46,754 nt of DNA. Source: a virus. This document shows positions 2,019-43,973 of this stretch, piece after piece. The stretch spans positions 1 to 46,754 of the IMG/VR virus record IMGVR_UViG_3300009788_000150; one strand, written 5' to 3'. The notes below the pieces were generated by a model, which saw only the letters and a list, made by a program, of their open reading frames with translations, did no database searches and was not told the origin of the DNA. The position numbers were made by a program, and so were the translations under genes. Within the stretch, counting starts at the first letter, position 1. The number at the start of each line of letters is the position of its first letter.

Positions 2019-3815
2019 TCAAAAGCGCCGCCGATTACGGTTGAACGCATTGGGGGAACGGTTCCGTCCGAGCATCATGTCGTTCCACCCGGCGGGTGTG
2101 CGACCGTTGCCCAGAGGGTTTCGCATCATCTTCTCGTAGGCCGCGCGTTTCGCCGCCTTGATCTGCTGGTCCTCGTCGACCTTGAGACTGTCGATCCAGT
2201 GCCGACAAGTGCCTGCAACGGCGTCGAGCCTGTCGTCGTGAGTGAGGGCACCGCGCTCGCGAGTGATACGCGATAGCTGATACCAGAACGAGTATGATGT
2301 CCTTTTGCTGATCGGATAGTCCACAGTGGCTTCCCAATCCTTGGCCAGCAGACCCTCGTCCACCACCAGACGCCCAGCGCCGATGATCGGCTCCAGCGTG
2401 TCGATGATGCGGAGTTCCTTCTGGCCGGTCTCCCACACGTCCACGATCTCGCAGGCGTGCTCCTTCTGTAGGAGCGGCGTCCAGACCGCACTGAGTGCGC
2501 CCTTGCCGTAGTTCTCCTCGATATCGACCTGATGAGGCTTCCACTCGACGGCGATCTCGGTCAGCATATCCAGACTGCTGTGATCGAGCCCGCCGGGCAC
2601 GCCGCCCTCGTCTACGAGGAATATCTTGCCCCCGAGCATCTTGGATACCGCGTAGGCGGTCTCATCGCCGTTCTGCCCGCCACCGGCAGGATCGACATAC
2701 ATGTGCGTCGATACGAATGGCGCGAAGTCCTCACCGAAGCCAGAGGCCCTATAGTAGTGGTCCGTGATCGGCCAGTCCGCGGGTGTGTGAACACGCTGCG
2801 GCGGGGAGGGCTGGAAGTTGATATGCAGCGGTGCGCGATCACGGCTGATGTGCATGAAGACGATCTTCGCCGACTTCAGCGGGAACCGCTCTGCATCACT
2901 CAAGCGCGTATCGAGCATATGCTGCAACTGGAAGTATGCAGCGCCCTGATCAATCTCCTTGGCGATCAGAACGTCCTCGGGTAGGAGCACGGGGTCCGTG
3001 GCCTGCCCGCGGCTGCTCATAGGCCCGCCTCCAGTTCGGAGCGTCGGGTCTTTAGCCACTGCTGCGGCGATGCTGGGAGCTAGGTGCTCTCCGTAGTTGT
3101 CCTGCTCCTTCTGGGTCGGATACCGGCCCGGCCAAATGCGGATGACGTAACCACGGCTGTAGAGGCCGTTGTAAACGCTGTCGATGCTCTGGGGCGTGCC
3201 CAAGTAGATGATCTCGCCCAGCGAGCAGATCGAGATGAAATCTCGCGTCAAGTGCACGAGGCGAGCACGCTGGACCTCCGTCATGGAGTTCTTGCTGCTC
3301 TCGATGTCATCCGCGATCAGGAGGTCGGCGCGCTTGCCCTGCAAGTTCGACGTGATGCCGACGCAAGCCACGGACGGCGACTTCTCCGGTCCCTTCAACT
3401 CGTGATGGATGTCGAAGGCTTTGACAGATGCACGGTCCCCCGTAGAGCGGTCTGGGCGCAGGCATTCGAGTTCCTCCATGCCCATGATGATCTGGATGAT
3501 CCAGCCGCTGATCTCTGTGGCCATGTCGGAGCCGCTGCTGATGATCAACACGCGGGTCGTAGGGTCTTGTATCTGCCTCCACACAGCATAGGCTGCGGTG
3601 ATCGTTGTCTTCGCTTGACCACGTTGCGCCTGTATCATGCGATACTGCGGGCCGTGCTCAAGGAAGGCTGCGATGTCAAGCTGCACGGCAGTGCATTTGA
3701 AGCCCATCAGGCCCTCAATGACATCGAACAAGAAGGTGCTGAACTCGGCATACTCCTTCTGGAGTAGCTTGAGTTCAGCCCATCTCTCACCTGCCGTCCA
3801 CTGCCGCTCAGCCAT
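2019..3815 (-). CDS. terL: Terminase large subunit (TerL, T7 gp19-like)
   Basis: 598 residues, the size of T7 gp19 (586). The N-terminal ATPase has Walker A AQRGQAKT (63-70), Walker B LLIADDIE (165-172) and the coupling motif YLGTPQS (204-210). The C-terminal RNase H-like nuclease has MYVDPAGGG with Asp375, an acidic IEEN segment near 432, and a late THDDRLDA acidic motif. It pumps DNA into the prohead and cuts concatemers at terminal repeats. It overlaps the small-subunit gene by 8 bases with no strong ribosome site, implying coupled translation. The gp19-type motor is consistent with a linear genome with direct terminal repeats, even though the contig itself looks circular. Confidence 0.97.
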   Translation of the reverse strand: MAERQWTAGERWAELKLLQKEYAEFSTFLFDVIEGLMGFKCTAVQLDIAAFLEHGPQYRMIQAQRGQAKTTITAAYAVWRQIQDPTTRVLIISSGSDMATEISGWIIQIIMGMEELECLRPDRSTGDRASVKAFDIHHELKGPEKSPSVACVGITSNLQGKRADLLIADDIESSKNSMTEVQRARLVHLTRDFISICSLGEIIYLGTPQSIDSVYNGLYSRGYVIRIWPGRYPTQKEQDNYGEHLAPSIAAAVAKDPTLRTGGGPMSSRGQATDPVLLPEDVLIAKEIDQGAAYFQLQHMLDTRLSDAERFPLKSAKIVFMHISRDRAPLHINFQPSPPQRVHTPADWPITDHYYRASGFGEDFAPFVSTHMYVDPAGGGQNGDETAYAVSKMLGGKIFLVDEGGVPGGLDHSSLDMLTEIAVEWKPHQVDIEENYGKGALSAVWTPLLQKEHACEIVDVWETGQKELRIIDTLEPIIGAGRLVVDEGLLAKDWEATVDYPISKRTSYSFWYQLSRITRERGALTHDDRLDAVAGTCRHWIDSLKVDEDQQIKAAKRAAYEKMMRNPLGNGRTPAGWNDMMLGRNRSPNAFNRNRRRF

Positions 3816-4164
3816 TCTCGACGAGCGCCAGCTTGGTCAGGGACGACAGATTAGTGCGCTTGGCCCTACGTGCCGCAAGGCGCTCCTCAGTCGCAGACAG
3901 CTTCTCGACCTCTTCGGTGTCATAGGAGATGTCGTTGTCCTTGAGGAACTTCGTCACGGCAGCGAGCATGGCGGGGTTAGGCATGATGTTGTCTCCCATC
4001 AGGAGGGACAGCATGTCCTCTCCCAAATCCGCGGTGACTGTTGCATCAAGTCCGTCAACGGCGTCCAGTCGCTTCTCGTAGGTGGCAAGCACCTTCTCGA
4101 ATACGCGAGCAATCCTGTCGTGCAGGTTGCCCATCGTGTGTTCTTTGGCTGATCCTTTTGCCAT
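3808..4164 (-). CDS. terS: Terminase small subunit (TerS, T7 gp18-like)
   Basis: 118 residues, directly before and overlapping TerL, as gp18 and gp19 are arranged in T7. The start ATG at 4164 overlaps the stop of the membrane-protein gene (TGATG) and follows a GAGAGG ribosome site, so longer forms were rejected. The protein is helical: helices near 10-30 and 55-75, then a Lys/Arg-rich C-terminal helix with a cluster of basic residues around 95-105 suited to DNA contact. Sequence similarity alone would not identify it; size and position make the assignment. Confidence 0.8.
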   Translation of the reverse strand: MAKGSAKEHTMGNLHDRIARVFEKVLATYEKRLDAVDGLDATVTADLGEDMLSLLMGDNIMPNPAMLAAVTKFLKDNDISYDTEEVEKLSATEERLAARRAKRTNLSSLTKLALVENG

Positions 4165-31517: not shown

Positions 31518-33151
31518 CTCCACGCCCTTCCTTTCTTGATGGTTAGGATCGCGCGTTTTGCGTTCGGATACGTCACGATCAAGGAATGGCTCCACGACGA
31601 TAGGCCCTTGTTGTAGCCCATGTCCAGCAGGGCGTAAAGCCCGCAGGTGTAGACGCCATCGACGATGCCCGCGGTGTGCGTATGGCCGGTGTTGGCCTTG
31701 CCCACTGTCCGCAGGTTCTTCGGTGCGCCGCGCGCTCCGTTCGGGCCGAGATGCCCGTGAAGCCCCGCTTGGATCGTGTCGAGGATCAGGTAGCTGTCAT
31801 CCTCGTGCACCATCGTCACGTTGCCCAGCAACTCCTCGTTCATGTAGCATTGAAGCGCGAAGGCGAAGGGCCGGGGCTTCTCGCCCTTGTCGATCATCAT
31901 GTGGCAGTAGTAGTTCAGACGGTGCCAGAACTTGACGTTCGTGGCGTCCATTAAGGCGGTGTGATTGCGAAGCCAGATTTCGACCGCTTGATCATGGTTG
32001 GATGTGACCACGATGCTCTTGCACCAAGGTCGATACCCAACGTCACCAAGGAAAGCGGCGCTGCCCGCGAACTCAGCCTCAACGCTGTCGGTTCCTTTGA
32101 CCCGCATCTCGTGCAGGAAGTGACCGTCCTTGATGTTGTGGTGGTTGCGCGCGGAGAAGTCGATTGTGTCATGGAAGAACTGCTCCCGTGGTTCGAGTTG
32201 GTCGAGGATGCCGTGCTTCTCGAACACGGACAAGAGGATCGCCGGGTCGCGCTTATCCCAATGGATGTCGCCGTGGGTCACGGCCTGCACGCGCTGGTTC
32301 GGGAACACAGCGGTCGGCGTGAAATACTCGTTCAGGTCGTAGAAACTGCCGTCGTTCTTGGCGTTCAACTGCCTGACCCACCAAGTGCCTGCGTCATCGA
32401 CCTCCACGATCACCGCTCCGAAGACGTGGTGGAAGTCGGCAACCTGACCAGCGGTCTTCTCGATGTAGTTCCGCTGGGTCACGGCCCCGGTCGTATAGAG
32501 CATCTTCGTGGGGAAACCCTTCATGGTCGGCACGCTCTCCATCGCCATCTTGGCGTGCGGGATGATCGCGCTGTCCTGCCGGGTATAAGTCTTGAACTGT
32601 GTGAGGGGGAACTTCATTGTGGGGATCACGTTCAACTCCCCGCACCACACAAGATCACTCGCAAGCTGAAGGCTCTCGTCGCTCACATAGGGCGCGATGG
32701 CCGGATCGAACCACAGGCGCTCGCCCTCTTGGGTATCAGCGCCGGGCTTCACCGACTTCTTACCGTGGCTCGCCTTGTTATAGGTGAACTGAGAGATGTG
32801 CAGGTCCGCGCCACGATGAGCGCAGAAGTTCTCTAGCGCGCGGAGGAAGTTCTCATGCACCTTGGTGTTGCTCTGGGCAGACGTGAACACCATCGTCTGG
32901 TTCGTCGTCCACTGCCTGCTCACGTCGGCACTCTCGATCACGCCGGGCGTCTCGATGTCCTCTTCATCATCAGCGGGCGAAGTGTTCACTGCCGGGGAAC
33001 TCGCCGGATACAGCCGGTCAAGCTGGTCCCACAGCGAAGCATTGCGAAAGCCGAAGCCAGCTTTGCGCAACTTTATTGCTGTGTCTTCTCGTGTGCGGCA
33101 AGTTTCGCGCGCTTCACGCACATGGTGATCCATCGGTTTCGGTTTTCTCAT
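31514..33151 (-). CDS. Calcineurin-like metallophosphoesterase with extra N-terminal region
   Basis: 545 residues. Metal motifs in order: THGDIHWDK with Asp295 and His297, the HDTID segment near 327-331, SNHD (384-387), GLHGHLGPNG (463-472) and the final GHTHT (489-493). This is the metallophosphoesterase set (GDxH, GNHD-type, GHxH). The first 80 residues hold a charged helical segment and an Asp/Glu-rich linker. Overlaps helicase by 38 bases; ATG 33151 follows GGAG. A DNA, RNA or nucleotide substrate is possible; placement beside helicase suggests nucleic acid. Confidence 0.82.
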   Translation of the reverse strand: MRKPKPMDHHVREARETCRTREDTAIKLRKAGFGFRNASLWDQLDRLYPASSPAVNTSPADDEEDIETPGVIESADVSRQWTTNQTMVFTSAQSNTKVHENFLRALENFCAHRGADLHISQFTYNKASHGKKSVKPGADTQEGERLWFDPAIAPYVSDESLQLASDLVWCGELNVIPTMKFPLTQFKTYTRQDSAIIPHAKMAMESVPTMKGFPTKMLYTTGAVTQRNYIEKTAGQVADFHHVFGAVIVEVDDAGTWWVRQLNAKNDGSFYDLNEYFTPTAVFPNQRVQAVTHGDIHWDKRDPAILLSVFEKHGILDQLEPREQFFHDTIDFSARNHHNIKDGHFLHEMRVKGTDSVEAEFAGSAAFLGDVGYRPWCKSIVVTSNHDQAVEIWLRNHTALMDATNVKFWHRLNYYCHMMIDKGEKPRPFAFALQCYMNEELLGNVTMVHEDDSYLILDTIQAGLHGHLGPNGARGAPKNLRTVGKANTGHTHTAGIVDGVYTCGLYALLDMGYNKGLSSWSHSLIVTYPNAKRAILTIKKGRAWR

Positions 33152-40439: not shown

Positions 40440-40958
40440 TCAGGCAGCCTTCGCCTTGATGGCGGTCACGATGTTCGCGACATTGGCCATTGCCTCGGGA
40501 TCGAAGACGTCGCCCTTCTTGCCCTTGGCGCTGCGCGTGGCAGCCTTCTCATAAAAGGCGATCAGTTCGTCCACGAAGTTCATGGGCTTCTTGATCGGGG
40601 GCTCCCGGAACGTCCACCATTGCGTATTCGCAATGTGGCGCATATCCAAGTCGGCACCCTTTACCTTGCCACCGACGACGGTCTTGTCATCCTCGTTCAG
40701 CACGAAACCCAGCAACTTCGCCGAGCACGCCCATTGAATGAGAGCGTTCTTGCGAACACCATCACCCAATTCGGCGATCAGCTTGTTGACTTGACGCAGC
40801 GGGATGCGCACGTCATTGCCAGCAGCCCAATCGGCAGCGACCGCCACGAGGATCAGGTGAACGTCAAGCTGGAGTGTATTGCTCCGACCAGTCACGTTCT
40901 CGATAGCCTCGTCGATAGCAGCCTCGCCTTTGAGGGTCTTGAAGTCGATCTTCGGCAT
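40440..40958 (-). CDS. Conserved-looking early protein (172 aa)
   Basis: ATG 40958 follows GAGGAGAGACTGA. It begins PKIDFKTLKGEAAIDEAI; helical, with a WACSAKLLGFV segment and a Lys-rich GKKGD stretch near the C-terminus, ending in an Ala-rich helix. Similar N-termini (KIDFKTLKGE) occur in small proteins of other podoviruses, from memory; no function is known. Preceded by two strong hairpins. As one of the first genes expressed it is a candidate host-takeover protein. Confidence 0.82.
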   Translation of the reverse strand: MPKIDFKTLKGEAAIDEAIENVTGRSNTLQLDVHLILVAVAADWAAGNDVRIPLRQVNKLIAELGDGVRKNALIQWACSAKLLGFVLNEDDKTVVGGKVKGADLDMRHIANTQWWTFREPPIKKPMNFVDELIAFYEKAATRSAKGKKGDVFDPEAMANVANIVTAIKAKAA

Positions 40959-40995
40959 TCAGTCTCTCCTCGGTATGTATTGGTCTATCGGTCAC

Positions 40996-41054
40996 GGTAT
41001 GACCGAACAGTCATACCCCATTGCGCACCAGAGGGTTCAAGAATGGTGCGCAAT
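40996..41054 (-). promoter_or_regulatory. Two strong adjacent hairpins in the leader of the 172-aa gene
   Basis: Hairpin 1: GGTATGAC (40996-41003) with GTCATACC (41010-41017), 8 bp, 6-base loop. Hairpin 2: an 11-bp perfect stem, ATTGCGCACCA (41020-41030) with TGGTGCGCAAT (41044-41054), 13-base loop. They are 2 bases apart and have no T tracts. T7 early mRNAs are cut by RNase III at intergenic hairpins; these could be equivalents. Confidence 0.65.
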
Positions 41055-41060
41055 CAGGTA

Positions 41061-41135
41061 TCACTCAATATCTACCGCCGTTATCATCAGCACGGCAGCC
41101 AGTAACAGCACGGCAGCAGCCATGAGCCCACTCAT
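41061..41135 (-). CDS. Possible membrane micropeptide (24 aa)
   Basis: ATG 41135 overlaps the stop of the 80-aa membrane protein (ATGA). The peptide is one hydrophobic helix (Ala, Leu, Val, Met) with an acidic VDIE end. There is no well-spaced ribosome site, so it would rely on reinitiation. Tentative. Confidence 0.45.
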   Translation of the reverse strand: MSGLMAAAVLLLAAVLMITAVDIE

Positions 41136-41374
41136 GCCCGATACCCATACTTGTCCTTCGGGAAGACGGTCATAAACAGCCATACACAACTGGCAAACCA
41201 GAGTATGGTGTAGATGAACATGCCAGCCTTCACCCCAAACAGGGATGTCAGGCACCACAGTATGAACATACCGATCAGATAACCGGCAACAAAGCATGTC
41301 GCTATGATGCCAGTGTATGCGCAAGCCGTCCCCGCTTTACGGGCAAACTCACGCTTTGTCATGTTGATCTTCAT
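41132..41374 (-). CDS. First early gene: two-helix membrane protein (80 aa)
   Basis: ATG 41374 follows GGAGGA at good spacing, ruling out the Met eight codons upstream. Basic N-terminus (KINMTKREFARK), two membrane helices (about 13-43 and 48-70), and a Lys-rich end; topology is probably N-in/C-in. It is the first protein gene after the gene-free regulatory region, so among the first made. Early membrane proteins can act in superinfection exclusion or membrane takeover; no family recognised. Confidence 0.82.
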   Translation of the reverse strand: MKINMTKREFARKAGTACAYTGIIATCFVAGYLIGMFILWCLTSLFGVKAGMFIYTILWFASCVWLFMTVFPKDKYGYRA

Positions 41375-41387
41375 GCGTTCCTCCATA

Positions 41388-41457
41388 GTTAACACCATGA
41401 AAGATCACCATTCAGTGCATAGGGTGGTTGTAGAGGGTAGTCTTTCAGGGTGTTAAC
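41388..41457. repeat. 17-bp inverted repeat upstream of the first early gene
   Basis: GTTAACACCATGAAAGA at 41388-41404 is matched by TCTTTCAGGGTGTTAAC at 41441-41457, one mismatch, with a 36-bp centre. It lies 14 bp upstream of the first early start codon. It could be a long-range mRNA hairpin controlling translation or a double operator. Confidence 0.7.
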
Positions 41458-41504
41458 CCTTGCCCGTTAGCATCGCGTCATTATCCGCATCGCTACACAG
41501 CGCC

Positions 41505-42060
41505 ACCCGGTTACAGCCTAGGGTTTCCGCAGGGTTAGTGCGGCTAGGGTGTTCGGGTTCGGTGCCGGGCTATCGCAACCAAGTCTAATCCGAAGCTGTT
41601 CGCTGCCTTGCGGAGGGTGTGTTCGCCGTGCCAGTGCCGTTCTAAGTGTTAGCGGCTATTCTGGCGAAGTCTTGGGAACACCCTTTGATCCGCTTGGCAC
41701 TACTGAGCCGCGCTTGGATTAGGTGTATGATTGCTTTCCTAGAGGATTGCAGAGCGAGACCGGGGCCTCGCTTGTCGCAGGTGCCGTGACTAGCTGGCCA
41801 TCGCAACACTGTGACCAGTGTCGCGAATTATGCCAGCTAGGGTTCACACCCTTGCTGCAATCCAAAGAGGGTATCCGCTCTCCCTTGGCCTCGCATGGCC
41901 ACCCTTCCGGGGCGGGTTCGTGGGGGATGGCTTGCCAGCACACCACCGAAATCCTCTAGGCTTCGCGGCACCATATCCGCTGGGTTTGCCGTCTCGCCGT
42001 GTAAGGGCTTCGGGCTATAGGTTGCGCCGGGCAATCGAGTAAGCGGCGCTATAGGCTTGG
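41505..42060. ncRNA. Candidate large structured RNA
   Basis: No gene-like frame on either strand, but dense nested complementarity. Domain I: ACCCG/CGGGT, CCTAG/CTAGG and CCGCA/TGCGG (41505-41558). Domain II (41585-41722), a nested rod: CTAATCC-AAGC with GCTT-GGATTAG, TGCC-tt-GCGG with CCGC-tt-GGCA, AGGGTGT/ACACCCT, TTCGCC/GGCGAA, GCCGTT/AGCGGC. Domain III: GGATTGCAG/CTGCAATCC (41744/41855) enclosing AGCGAG/CTCGCT and a long arm CTAGCTGGC/GCCAGCTAG with TCGC-ACACTG/CAGTGT-GCGA. Others: TGGCC/GGCCA (41886/41897), GCGCC/GGCGC (42024/42045). G-U pairs in domain II favour the plus strand, a pair in domain III the minus strand, so the strand is left open. Family unknown. Confidence 0.6.
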
Positions 42061-42194
42061 CCATCGCTGACCGGGTGTTGCAAGTAAAGAGCGCGTAGGG
42101 TGTAACCTGCTAGGAACAGGGTAGTTAGGCACGGCATTTGCCGCACCACCCTTCTCCCATAGTTGCACCTGATTCGCAAAGCCTTTATAACTGA

Positions 42195-42424
42195 TATGCA
42201 CTAAATGCGTATGGTGTAATGGTTTACACAGTGTATGCACTAATTGCATACTATGTGCACAAGTAGTCGTAGGCTTCCCAAAGAAGCCGTAGACGGATTG
42301 TGCGATAGTTTATGAGAGTTTATGAACAGAGTGAATAACATAGTTTATGAATAGATAGCTTATCCGGGCTATTACTATGAGTATAAGCGCGAAGCGTTGT
42401 AGACTATGAGATCAGATAGCTTAT
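42195..42424. repeat. AT-rich iteron-like repeats (possible origin or operator array)
   Basis: AT-rich island in a GC-rich genome. TATGCACTA occurs at 42195-42203 and 42234-42242 (and again at 42664-42672), each followed by a similar TTGCATA/ATGCGTA arm. AGTTTATGA occurs at 42307-42315, 42317-42325 and 42342-42350. GATAGCTTAT occurs at 42354-42363 and 42415-42424. No gene is present. Such clusters mark replication origins or repressor sites; neither is proven. Confidence 0.6.
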
Positions 42425-42486
42425 ACACTGCTGCGCAGGTGGAACAGATACAGACCCGGATCGCCTAGGATCGCCGGGATACCGCA

Positions 42487-42512
42487 TGTGCTCTTATAGC
42501 GACCGCCTAACT
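42487..42512 (-). promoter_or_regulatory. Phage RNA polymerase promoter at the start of the early region
   Basis: Identical over 26 bp to the element after the RNA polymerase gene, read on the minus strand with core GGCGGTCGCTATAAGAG. It points into the gene-free region and the early genes. In T7-like phages a phage promoter near the left end can also help replication initiation and genome entry. Confidence 0.82.
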
Positions 42513-42526
42513 CCCAGAGGGCTGGG

Positions 42527-42562
42527 CAGGGAGGCCAGCAGGGAGGCCAGCAGGGAGGCCAG
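42527..42562. repeat. Three perfect copies of a 12-bp tandem repeat
   Basis: CAGGGAGGCCAG repeated three times without spacers, 15 bp upstream of the phage promoter at 42487-42512 (in the sense of transcription). T7 and relatives carry short tandem repeat arrays next to their terminal repeats; this may be the analogue. Confidence 0.85.
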
Positions 42563-42747
42563 CGAGATCAAAGGGGATGCGGCCCGGATCGAAAGGGGAT
42601 AGCTCGCAGCGCTTGCACACGGTTGACCACAGAGCGGAGAGTGATCGACCGCGCTGCACTCGGTATGCACTATCTTTGACCCGGATAGACGCATGTGCGC
42701 ACGGGTTTACAGTGAGAGCCGGGCCGGGGTATGGGGAAACCTCGCGA

Positions 42748-42775
42748 GCTATACCTTGTAGATACCCCCACGCAA
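42748..42775 (-). promoter_or_regulatory. Weaker sigma70-like promoter
   Basis: Minus strand TTGCGT (42770-42775), 16-bp spacer, TATAGC (42748-42753). It is downstream of the stronger one at 42824-42852 in the same orientation, giving a tandem arrangement like the T7 A promoters. Moderate match only. Confidence 0.45.
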
Positions 42776-42823
42776 AAATCCGTTGCTTTTCTAACAAAGT
42801 ATGTCCTCGTATGCGCGAAACGA

Positions 42824-42852
42824 GTTATACTCTCGATGTGCAACAAGTTCAA
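42824..42852 (-). promoter_or_regulatory. Sigma70-like early promoter
   Basis: Minus strand TTGAAC (42847-42852), exactly 17 bp, then TATAAC (42824-42829). It overlaps the last codons of the final late gene and faces the early region. The spacing and -10 match are good. It is the best candidate for host RNA polymerase entry. Confidence 0.6.
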
Positions 42853-42986
42853 CGAGTGTTGCACACTGAGAATACAACCGTTTGCGTTTTTAGTTCTCGC
42901 CTGCTTCTCCCCAAGGCAGGTCCACATACACCGTCGCACCAGAAGCCACTTGCGTGCTTCCCGTCCTTGTGTAGTTTCTTTGCCAT
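42849..42986 (-). CDS. Hypothetical small late protein (45 aa)
   Basis: ATG 42986 follows GGAGG five bases upstream. Basic and Cys-containing (WCDGVCGPALGRSRREL). It follows the 52-aa membrane protein by 11 bases. Beyond it is the gene-free region, so it is the last gene of the late transcript in the circular map. No family recognised; short, so moderate confidence. Confidence 0.6.
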   Translation of the reverse strand: MAKKLHKDGKHASGFWCDGVCGPALGRSRRELKTQTVVFSVCNTR

Positions 42987-42997
42987 GCGGGCCTCCG

Positions 42998-43156
42998 TTA
43001 CCTCAAGTGCTTGGTCTGAGCACGGCGTTCCCGCCATGAACGGAAAGTGCGCCAGAAGTGCGTGAAACTGCGGTATATCGTCCACAGTCCAACCAGCAGC
43101 AGAACTCCGCCGAGAGTTAGCAGAGCCCCGGTTGTGATAGTTGCCAGATAAAGCAT
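42998..43156 (-). CDS. Small membrane protein, late operon (52 aa)
   Basis: ATG 43156 follows AGGAGGCACAGG. One long hydrophobic helix (about residues 3-27), then an amphipathic, very basic end (RTFRSWRERRAQTKHLR). Stop TAA is just before the next ribosome site. N-out/C-in single-helix proteins of this size include pinholins and small virion or envelope proteins. Its late position makes it an alternative holin candidate, apart from the endolysin cluster. Confidence 0.72.
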   Translation of the reverse strand: MLYLATITTGALLTLGGVLLLVGLWTIYRSFTHFWRTFRSWRERRAQTKHLR

Positions 43157-43166
43157 CCTGTGCCTC

Positions 43167-43973
43167 CTAGTTCTCGTTCACGACGAACGTCATCTGAGCG
43201 TTCACAGCAGCAGTTGAAGCCGGAACGCGCGCGAGGAGCGCTACATCGGTGAGCGGTGGAAAGAAGATCGGTTCCTCGAAGTGAAACTGCACGTCGTTGA
43301 TGGCAGCGTTCAGTTCAGCCACCAATCGCACGGCTTTGATCTCCGTGGTGTCCATAAGGATGTCATTCCGCTGTAGCAGCAGGAAATCCACAACCTTGGT
43401 GCTCGCTACGAACAAGTGGATGCCGCTCAAATACCCGCGCTGACCTACGCCGAACGTAAAGGCTGCGATCTGGGTCTGGCCCTCGGGGAAATCGGTCGAC
43501 AGAATGGTTGCCCACTCCTGTCCAGCCGTATCCTCGATCACAATCGCGGCGGCGTGCGAGCCGGTGTTCATATCCGCGGAATACACGCCCACGTCGGAGA
43601 CGAAAGCGCGGTAGACGCGCATGAATAGCTGGGTGGTCGGAGCGGAGGCCAACGCGCCCGCTGTAGCCACCGTCTCGGAGACCTGCGCACCATCCGGGCC
43701 GATCCCGATGAAGGTCACAGCGCGGGCTCCTGTGCCCGCTGCGGTGTCAGCCGCGTTTCCGCCTGCCTTGATCCGCATGGCCACGGCATCCGCGGATTTC
43801 GGGGTGTGATAAATGCCGTCGTCGGAGACTACGCCGAACGTAGTGCCCACAGCCGGGTTATGCCCGAACTTGAAGATGGTCTCCAGCCCGTGGTTCTCTC
43901 CACCAGCAATGAGCATCCCCTGATCGTTCATGAAGTCCTTCTCGAACTGCCCGTATCGAGTGATATGCGTCAT
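43167..43973 (-). CDS. Putative virion decoration or head/tail accessory protein (268 aa)
   Basis: ATG 43973 follows AAAGGAGGTCGAC. Beta-rich, with Ala/Thr/Gly-rich strands and few charged helices, the look of a capsid decoration or fibre protein. Contains GHNPAVGTTFGVVSDDGIYHTP near residues 33-54 and a C-terminal PLTDVALLARVPASTAAVNAQMTFVVNE region suggesting a jelly-roll. Lies in a block of three such proteins after the lectin gene. No family name can be assigned. Confidence 0.78.
   Translation of the reverse strand: MTHITRYGQFEKDFMNDQGMLIAGGENHGLETIFKFGHNPAVGTTFGVVSDDGIYHTPKSADAVAMRIKAGGNAADTAAGTGARAVTFIGIGPDGAQVSETVATAGALASAPTTQLFMRVYRAFVSDVGVYSADMNTGSHAAAIVIEDTAGQEWATILSTDFPEGQTQIAAFTFGVGQRGYLSGIHLFVASTKVVDFLLLQRNDILMDTTEIKAVRLVAELNAAINDVQFHFEEPIFFPPLTDVALLARVPASTAAVNAQMTFVVNEN

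Follow-up and report, generated by a model that had tools for sequence, protein, structure and literature searches.

A candidate structured leader RNA near the genome end of a T7-like phage, ahead of its early genes

Genome context of the gene-free stretch

The window analysed here is the whole of a 46,754-base IMG/VR virus record. Genes identified on its minus strand encode a T7-like RNA polymerase, DNA polymerase, DnaB-like helicase and primase, together with a head-tail adaptor, major head protein, an internal virion protein with an endolysin domain and the large terminase, and the phage is a T7-like relative of the Autographiviridae. Among annotated genomes, the nearest belong to Autographiviridae that infect alphaproteobacteria, including Paracoccus, Rhizobium and Agrobacterium phages. 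The helicase is approximately 65% identical to the closest record (L014) and is matched equally well by a contig of a Pseudorhodobacter genome (L102); in the closest relative (L100) it is 65% identical. Other relatives of the helicase sit in large bacterial contigs of Bradyrhizobium (L104, 504 kb) and Pannonibacter (L105, 1.5 Mb), which suggests integrated T7-like phages; the phrog_1448 gene described below was absent when searched for in these two contigs. The one tRNA call by ARAGORN, a tRNA-Thr at 31904-31999 on the plus strand, lies inside the minus-strand DNA transfer protein gene and is probably spurious.

A 1.77-kb gene-free stretch (41399-43166) separates the last late gene (43167-43973) from the first early genes. 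The features that frame it are as follows.

42730-42797, minus strand: conserved genome-terminus motif, alignable in relatives
42195-42211 and 42234-42250, minus strand: two near-identical 17-bp repeats, each containing TAGTGCATA
41132-41398, minus strand: first early gene, from the ORF list, for a predicted membrane protein of 88 amino acids (codon-usage z 5.0)
40440-40958, minus strand: early gene of the phrog_1448 family (E 8.4e-24)

A GGAGG at 41380-41384 suggests that the first early gene starts at the ATG at 41374. The phrog_1448 family was seen in 31 phage records, and its gene, located in 45 fetched loci, served as the positional anchor for relatives. Ahead of this gene in the window lies an 11-bp perfect hairpin (ATTGCGCACCA/TGGTGCGCAAT; 41020-41054), possibly an RNase III-type processing site. 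The 160-nt window at 40961-41120 gave the top over-stability of our genome scan (z -6.7), and excess folding directly 5' of the phrog_1448 gene was also seen in many relatives.

The terminus motif aligns in L004-L007, L009, L012, L016, L035, L038, L040, L053, L100 and L101, and is thus common to many relatives while the remainder of the gene-free stretch differs. In Rhizobium phage Palo, whose terminal repeat was defined by PhageTerm as 1-260, the motif is found where that repeat starts. Alignment would put the physical left end of the phage's linear genome near 42760, and the start of the candidate RNA approximately 600 nt inside this end and upstream of the first early genes. Just beyond the predicted end is an inverted repeat with 22-nt arms (42824-42878), overlapped by a minus-strand promoter-like match (TTGAAC-N17-TATAAC). 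Near the predicted inner edge of the terminal repeat, GCAGGGAGGCCA occurs three times at 12-bp spacing (42526-42563), and relatives carry different short-repeat zones (ATAGATA, CCCGGAT) in the matching area.

All three copies of TAGTGCATA in the window (42672, 42242 and 42203) are on the minus strand and inside the gene-free stretch, and the repeat zone at 42195-42250 is predicted to be the likely promoter/operator region of the leader. A consensus sigma-70 promoter was not found on the minus strand of the window, a point against the leader RNA proposed below. No terminator was found between the candidate RNA and the first gene, and the RNA would therefore begin at the 5' end of the early operon transcript, as its leader.

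Predicted folding and the choice of strand

An earlier note on this DNA had proposed a large structured RNA at 41505-42060, built of nested, stacked helices, and had asked for its stability to be compared with shuffled controls. Fold stability was accordingly compared with dinucleotide shuffles on both strands. These predictions confirmed that the RNA structure is genuine in the modelled folds, with the gene-free stretch forming several strong domains, listed here in 5' to 3' order of the minus strand.

42100-42171, minus strand: hairpin at the 5' end of the candidate leader (z -4.0 on minus, -2.9 on plus)
41950-41960, minus strand: 5' side of a possible perfect 11-bp helix with 41738-41748, read from the sequence
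41744-41863, minus strand: branched cloverleaf-like domain (z -7.5 to -7.8 minus; 0/406 shuffles as stable)
41839-41852 (GUGA loop), 41792-41838, 41774-41790 (weak) and 41753-41772, minus strand: arms of the branched domain in the predicted fold
41585-41722, minus strand: rod of consecutive helices, 138 nt (z -3.3 to -3.4 minus, -4.2 to -4.4 plus)
41440-41584, minus strand: 3' hairpins between the rod and the first gene (z -2.5)

The branched domain has a minimum free energy of -69.0 kcal/mol on the minus strand and -60.3 kcal/mol on the plus strand, where it is likewise more stable than all shuffles (z -5.4; 0/406). It is closed by a 9-bp helix, GGAUUGCAG/CUGCAAUCC (41855-41863 with 41744-41752), and holds four arms, more than the three-way junction first described; one arm is capped by a GUGA loop of the GNRA type on the minus strand, and arms 1 and 3 are weak in the centroid fold. 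Alternatively, the domain may be closed by the perfect 11-nt complement that links 41950-41960 to 41738-41748, in competition with the 9-bp stem. The cloverleaf topology might suggest a tRNA, but this reading was dropped, as ARAGORN is silent there and the domain has neither a T-loop nor a CCA end.

Both domains recognised earlier thus fold far better than dinucleotide shuffles, the rod with its consecutive helices doing so on either strand. The range itself needed adjustment: structure reaches to about 42171, and the connecting stretches at 41865-41960 (z +0.5) and 41965-42100 (z about +2) were no better than shuffles, indicating separate domains in a row instead of a single compact fold of 550 nt. 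Over the entire 41505-42060 region z was -4.5 on the minus strand and -2.2 on the plus strand, and over 41480-42180 it was -6.1 and -2.4, the latter pair from 20 shuffles only. A genome-wide scan of the minus strand in 160-nt steps had a mean of -0.94 and a standard deviation of 1.29, so that the windows here, at -5.4 and -6.7, place the gene-free stretch among the extremes of the genome; the other extreme windows are 40961-41120 and 3681-3840. The stretch could alternatively be a fast-evolving, GC-rich leader with strong inverted repeats and no selected RNA, in keeping with those parts of it that fold at chance. We regard this as rather unlikely for a 120-nt domain with a z of -7.5 that none of 406 shuffles equalled.

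Folding beyond chance on both strands, in a stretch near the terminus with repeated palindrome-like motifs, may also be read as the action of inverted repeats at the DNA level, whether as binding sites or in starting replication, extruding hairpins or processing the ends near the terminus, with the RNA fold irrelevant. This explanation is unlikely in our view, as protein sites do not resemble a set of branched, nested helices with a GNRA-capped arm.

The earlier note left the strand uncertain, with some wobble pairs favouring plus, opposite to all genes, and for the rod this leaning stood: its minimum free energy is -60.4 on the plus strand against -48.3 on the minus strand, and its wobble pairs (0 G-U against 5 A-C when read on the minus strand) also favour plus. 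Because G and T abound on the plus strand, G-U pairs are cheap there. Once corrected for composition, stability favours minus for the whole region as well as for the 5' hairpin and branched domain, and the sole plus-strand promoter-like match (42223-42252) is directed away from the candidate RNA. A functional plus-strand RNA, antisense to the early operon, is therefore distinctly unlikely. The minus strand is the gene sense, and gene direction, position and the gene-sense rhizobial analogue described below all point to it as the likely functional strand.

Coding potential and searches for known RNAs and homologues

Open reading frames inside the stretch had codon-usage coding scores of -0.14 to -0.24, below those of real small genes (+0.03 to +0.36), and none matched a Pfam family; a hidden protein gene was rejected on these two results. 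The Rfam search of the whole window at gathering thresholds returned no match in the region, GOLLD and ROOL included, and at E values up to 5 over 40900-43200 it returned chance eukaryotic matches only, again without GOLLD or ROOL. Membership of these two classes is thus not supported, and a tRNA island is also absent nearby. On the relatives, Rfam identified tRNA and hammerhead only; a Type II hammerhead ribozyme match above the gathering score lies in the early region of L016 (5258-5321).

ROOL RNAs often lie near tRNA islands and form an RNA-only cage, and GOLLD RNAs, often >800 nt, also lie near tRNA islands, rise in expression during lysis and form an RNA cage (PMC12286853). The window RNA resembles ROOL in being large, multi-domain, phage-borne and approximately 600 nt long, but differs in its location in an early leader, without a tRNA island or Rfam match; with GOLLD it shares the character of a large ornate phage RNA, again without an Rfam match.

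No homologue of the window RNA was found by blastn, nhmmer or covariance models in viral_contigs, the phage collection or the fetched relatives. The DNA of the region had the terminus motif alone in common with the phage collection and fetched relatives, and a protein-anchored search for close relatives using 43167-43973 and 40440-40958 found none. A loose DNA pattern built from the branched domain had unrelated contigs among the matches listed. Covariance models were built for the window branched domain (R1), the rod of the rhizobial RNA (R2) and the core of L037/L040 (R3), and gave no cross-clade match; R2 against the window gave nothing with default filters and at most 6 bits with filters off. 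An exact 16-mer is common to L040 and the rhizobial RNA, and a 16-mer scan for additional rhizobial-type RNAs recovered the known two and unrelated contigs only. An apparent 200-nt element common to the relatives was rejected, as it consists of AT-rich ATAGATA-type repeats. The papers searched for structured RNAs in phages of this group yielded nothing relevant. The lack of a homologue is consistent with the unselected inverted repeats considered above, and the covariation evidence that follows comes from the leader RNAs of relatives and not from the window RNA.

Leaders of relatives and interpretation of the window RNA

Many of the 45 anchored loci keep a long gene-free stretch from the terminus to the early genes, and the three closest relatives (L100, L016 and L101/L017) retain the terminus motif within it. 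Most loci have tandem sense-strand promoters of host type (TTGACA, 16-18 nt, TAnnnT), and GCTTGACA promoters near the leaders were in sense orientation in 18 of 41 loci and antisense in 1. Among approximately 43 sequences near early genes, windows with z < -3 were commoner on the gene-sense than on the antisense strand, a trend that was modest and not universal. The closest relative (L100) has a gene-free leader of equal length in which excess folding was not found, a further point for unselected repeats, and the L016 leader showed local excess folding only.

In Cuernavacavirus phages of rhizobia, a gene-sense leader of about 500 nt at the same position has strong compensatory changes.

L012 1470-2044 (also L043, L227-L230), gene sense: Cuernavacavirus leader RNA, with covariation; absent from Rfam 15

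Carriers of this RNA are RHEph02/03/09, RHph_TM33, I38 and N37. Two-sided changes were found in 36 of 193 consensus pairs, a strong signal drawn from three effective sequences only. Its alifold z ranged from -4.2 to -10.6 and covarying pairs were 2 to 3 times the shuffled number, relative to column-shuffled controls that, here and in the two clades below, do not preserve dinucleotides. In its rod, 97.8% of cells were paired and 6 pairs had changed on both sides, against 2.3 when shuffled and at most 2 when slid. Leaders of the Paracoccus-phage clade, whose signal sits just downstream of TTGACA promoters, gave z values of -7.6 and -8.5 with 17 and 22 covarying pairs (10 and 12 when column-shuffled), and the L037/L040 leader gave -6.9. 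These Paracoccus-clade and L037/L040 signals were almost as strong on the antisense strand, which fits a role of the inverted repeats as DNA, but in Cuernavacavirus both stability and wobble pairs (33 G-U against 17 A-C) favour the gene sense. Selected RNAs occupying the same slot in other clades also argue against unselected repeats in the window.

Copies of AGTGCATA/GTGCATA lie directly upstream of the covarying RNA in RHEph03, I38 and N37, and in L045 the motif overlaps a TTGACA promoter. This upstream AGTGCATA motif, a trait of the Cuernavacavirus leader, is present in the window as two copies at 42195-42250, and the shared TAGTGCATA-type motif ties the window RNA to those of its relatives by context, not by sequence. 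The Cuernavacavirus and window leaders are further alike in lying before the first early gene in gene sense, and in the order of branched domain, rod of approximately 140 nt and gene; this common order was judged by eye and is no evidence of homology. They differ in having no detectable sequence similarity and, as far as known, in their hosts.

An early structured RNA is supported by the fold excess, the lack of coding signal, the gene-sense position and the covarying RNAs that relatives carry in this position. The original proposal of a large structured RNA in the early region thus held in its folding, non-coding character and position, and the plus strand it suggested is not favoured overall. 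On balance, the stretch probably encodes a structured leader RNA without coding function that host RNA polymerase makes as infection begins, and whose sequence evolves quickly while selection keeps its place and fold. The leader would extend for approximately 680 nt on the minus strand, from about 42175 to 41500, bounded by the repeat-rich, promoter-like zone at the left genome end and by the first early gene. It would be the first RNA that host polymerase makes upon genome entry, and it would fold as separate domains (5' hairpin, cloverleaf-like branched domain, rod and 3' hairpins). In our view its likeliest role is a task at the RNA level at infection onset, for which selection keeps the fold. 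Such a task could be carried out in cis, affecting how the early transcript is processed or elongated or how stable it is, or in trans, by a released RNA that acts on the host. Relatives would retain an RNA at the same position as its sequence turns over.

In bacteriophage HK022, host RNA polymerase makes early transcripts that begin with put RNAs, small stem-loop pairs that bring about processive antitermination. The window RNA would likewise be a structured RNA opening early phage transcripts, and by description it differs in having several domains and a predicted length of about 680 nt. In T7, a gene-free leader lies between the terminal repeat, tandem early promoters and the first gene, and RNase III-site hairpins precede genes. 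The window shares with it a gene-free leader near the terminus and hairpins ahead of genes; we know of no large covarying RNA in the T7 leader. HK022 put and the T7 leader are offered as functional comparisons only.

A broader reading, possible but doubtful at present, is that T7-like phages of alphaproteobacteria possess large leader RNAs of an undescribed class, constant in position and quick to change in sequence. Such an RNA would be what the infecting genome makes first and would act in trans on host targets such as RNA polymerase, nucleases or a defence system, and the window RNA would be a highly divergent member of the class. If so, this phage group would open infection with a large folded RNA instead of a protein, and an RNA would fill the slot where fast-evolving takeover functions are expected. 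It is important to note that the Cuernavacavirus version, with real compensatory changes, cultured rhizobium phages and no entry in Rfam 15, can be tested directly at the bench.

A separate hairpin lies just upstream of the rhizobial leader RNA and of the AGTGCATA motif in four phages, among them Palo, where the AGTGCATA/GTGCATA motif stands beside it. Its flanks and loop are conserved and its stem is rewritten in each of these four phages.

L012 1482-1505, L227 109-132, L228 37-59 and L011 1069-1092: rewritten-stem hairpin
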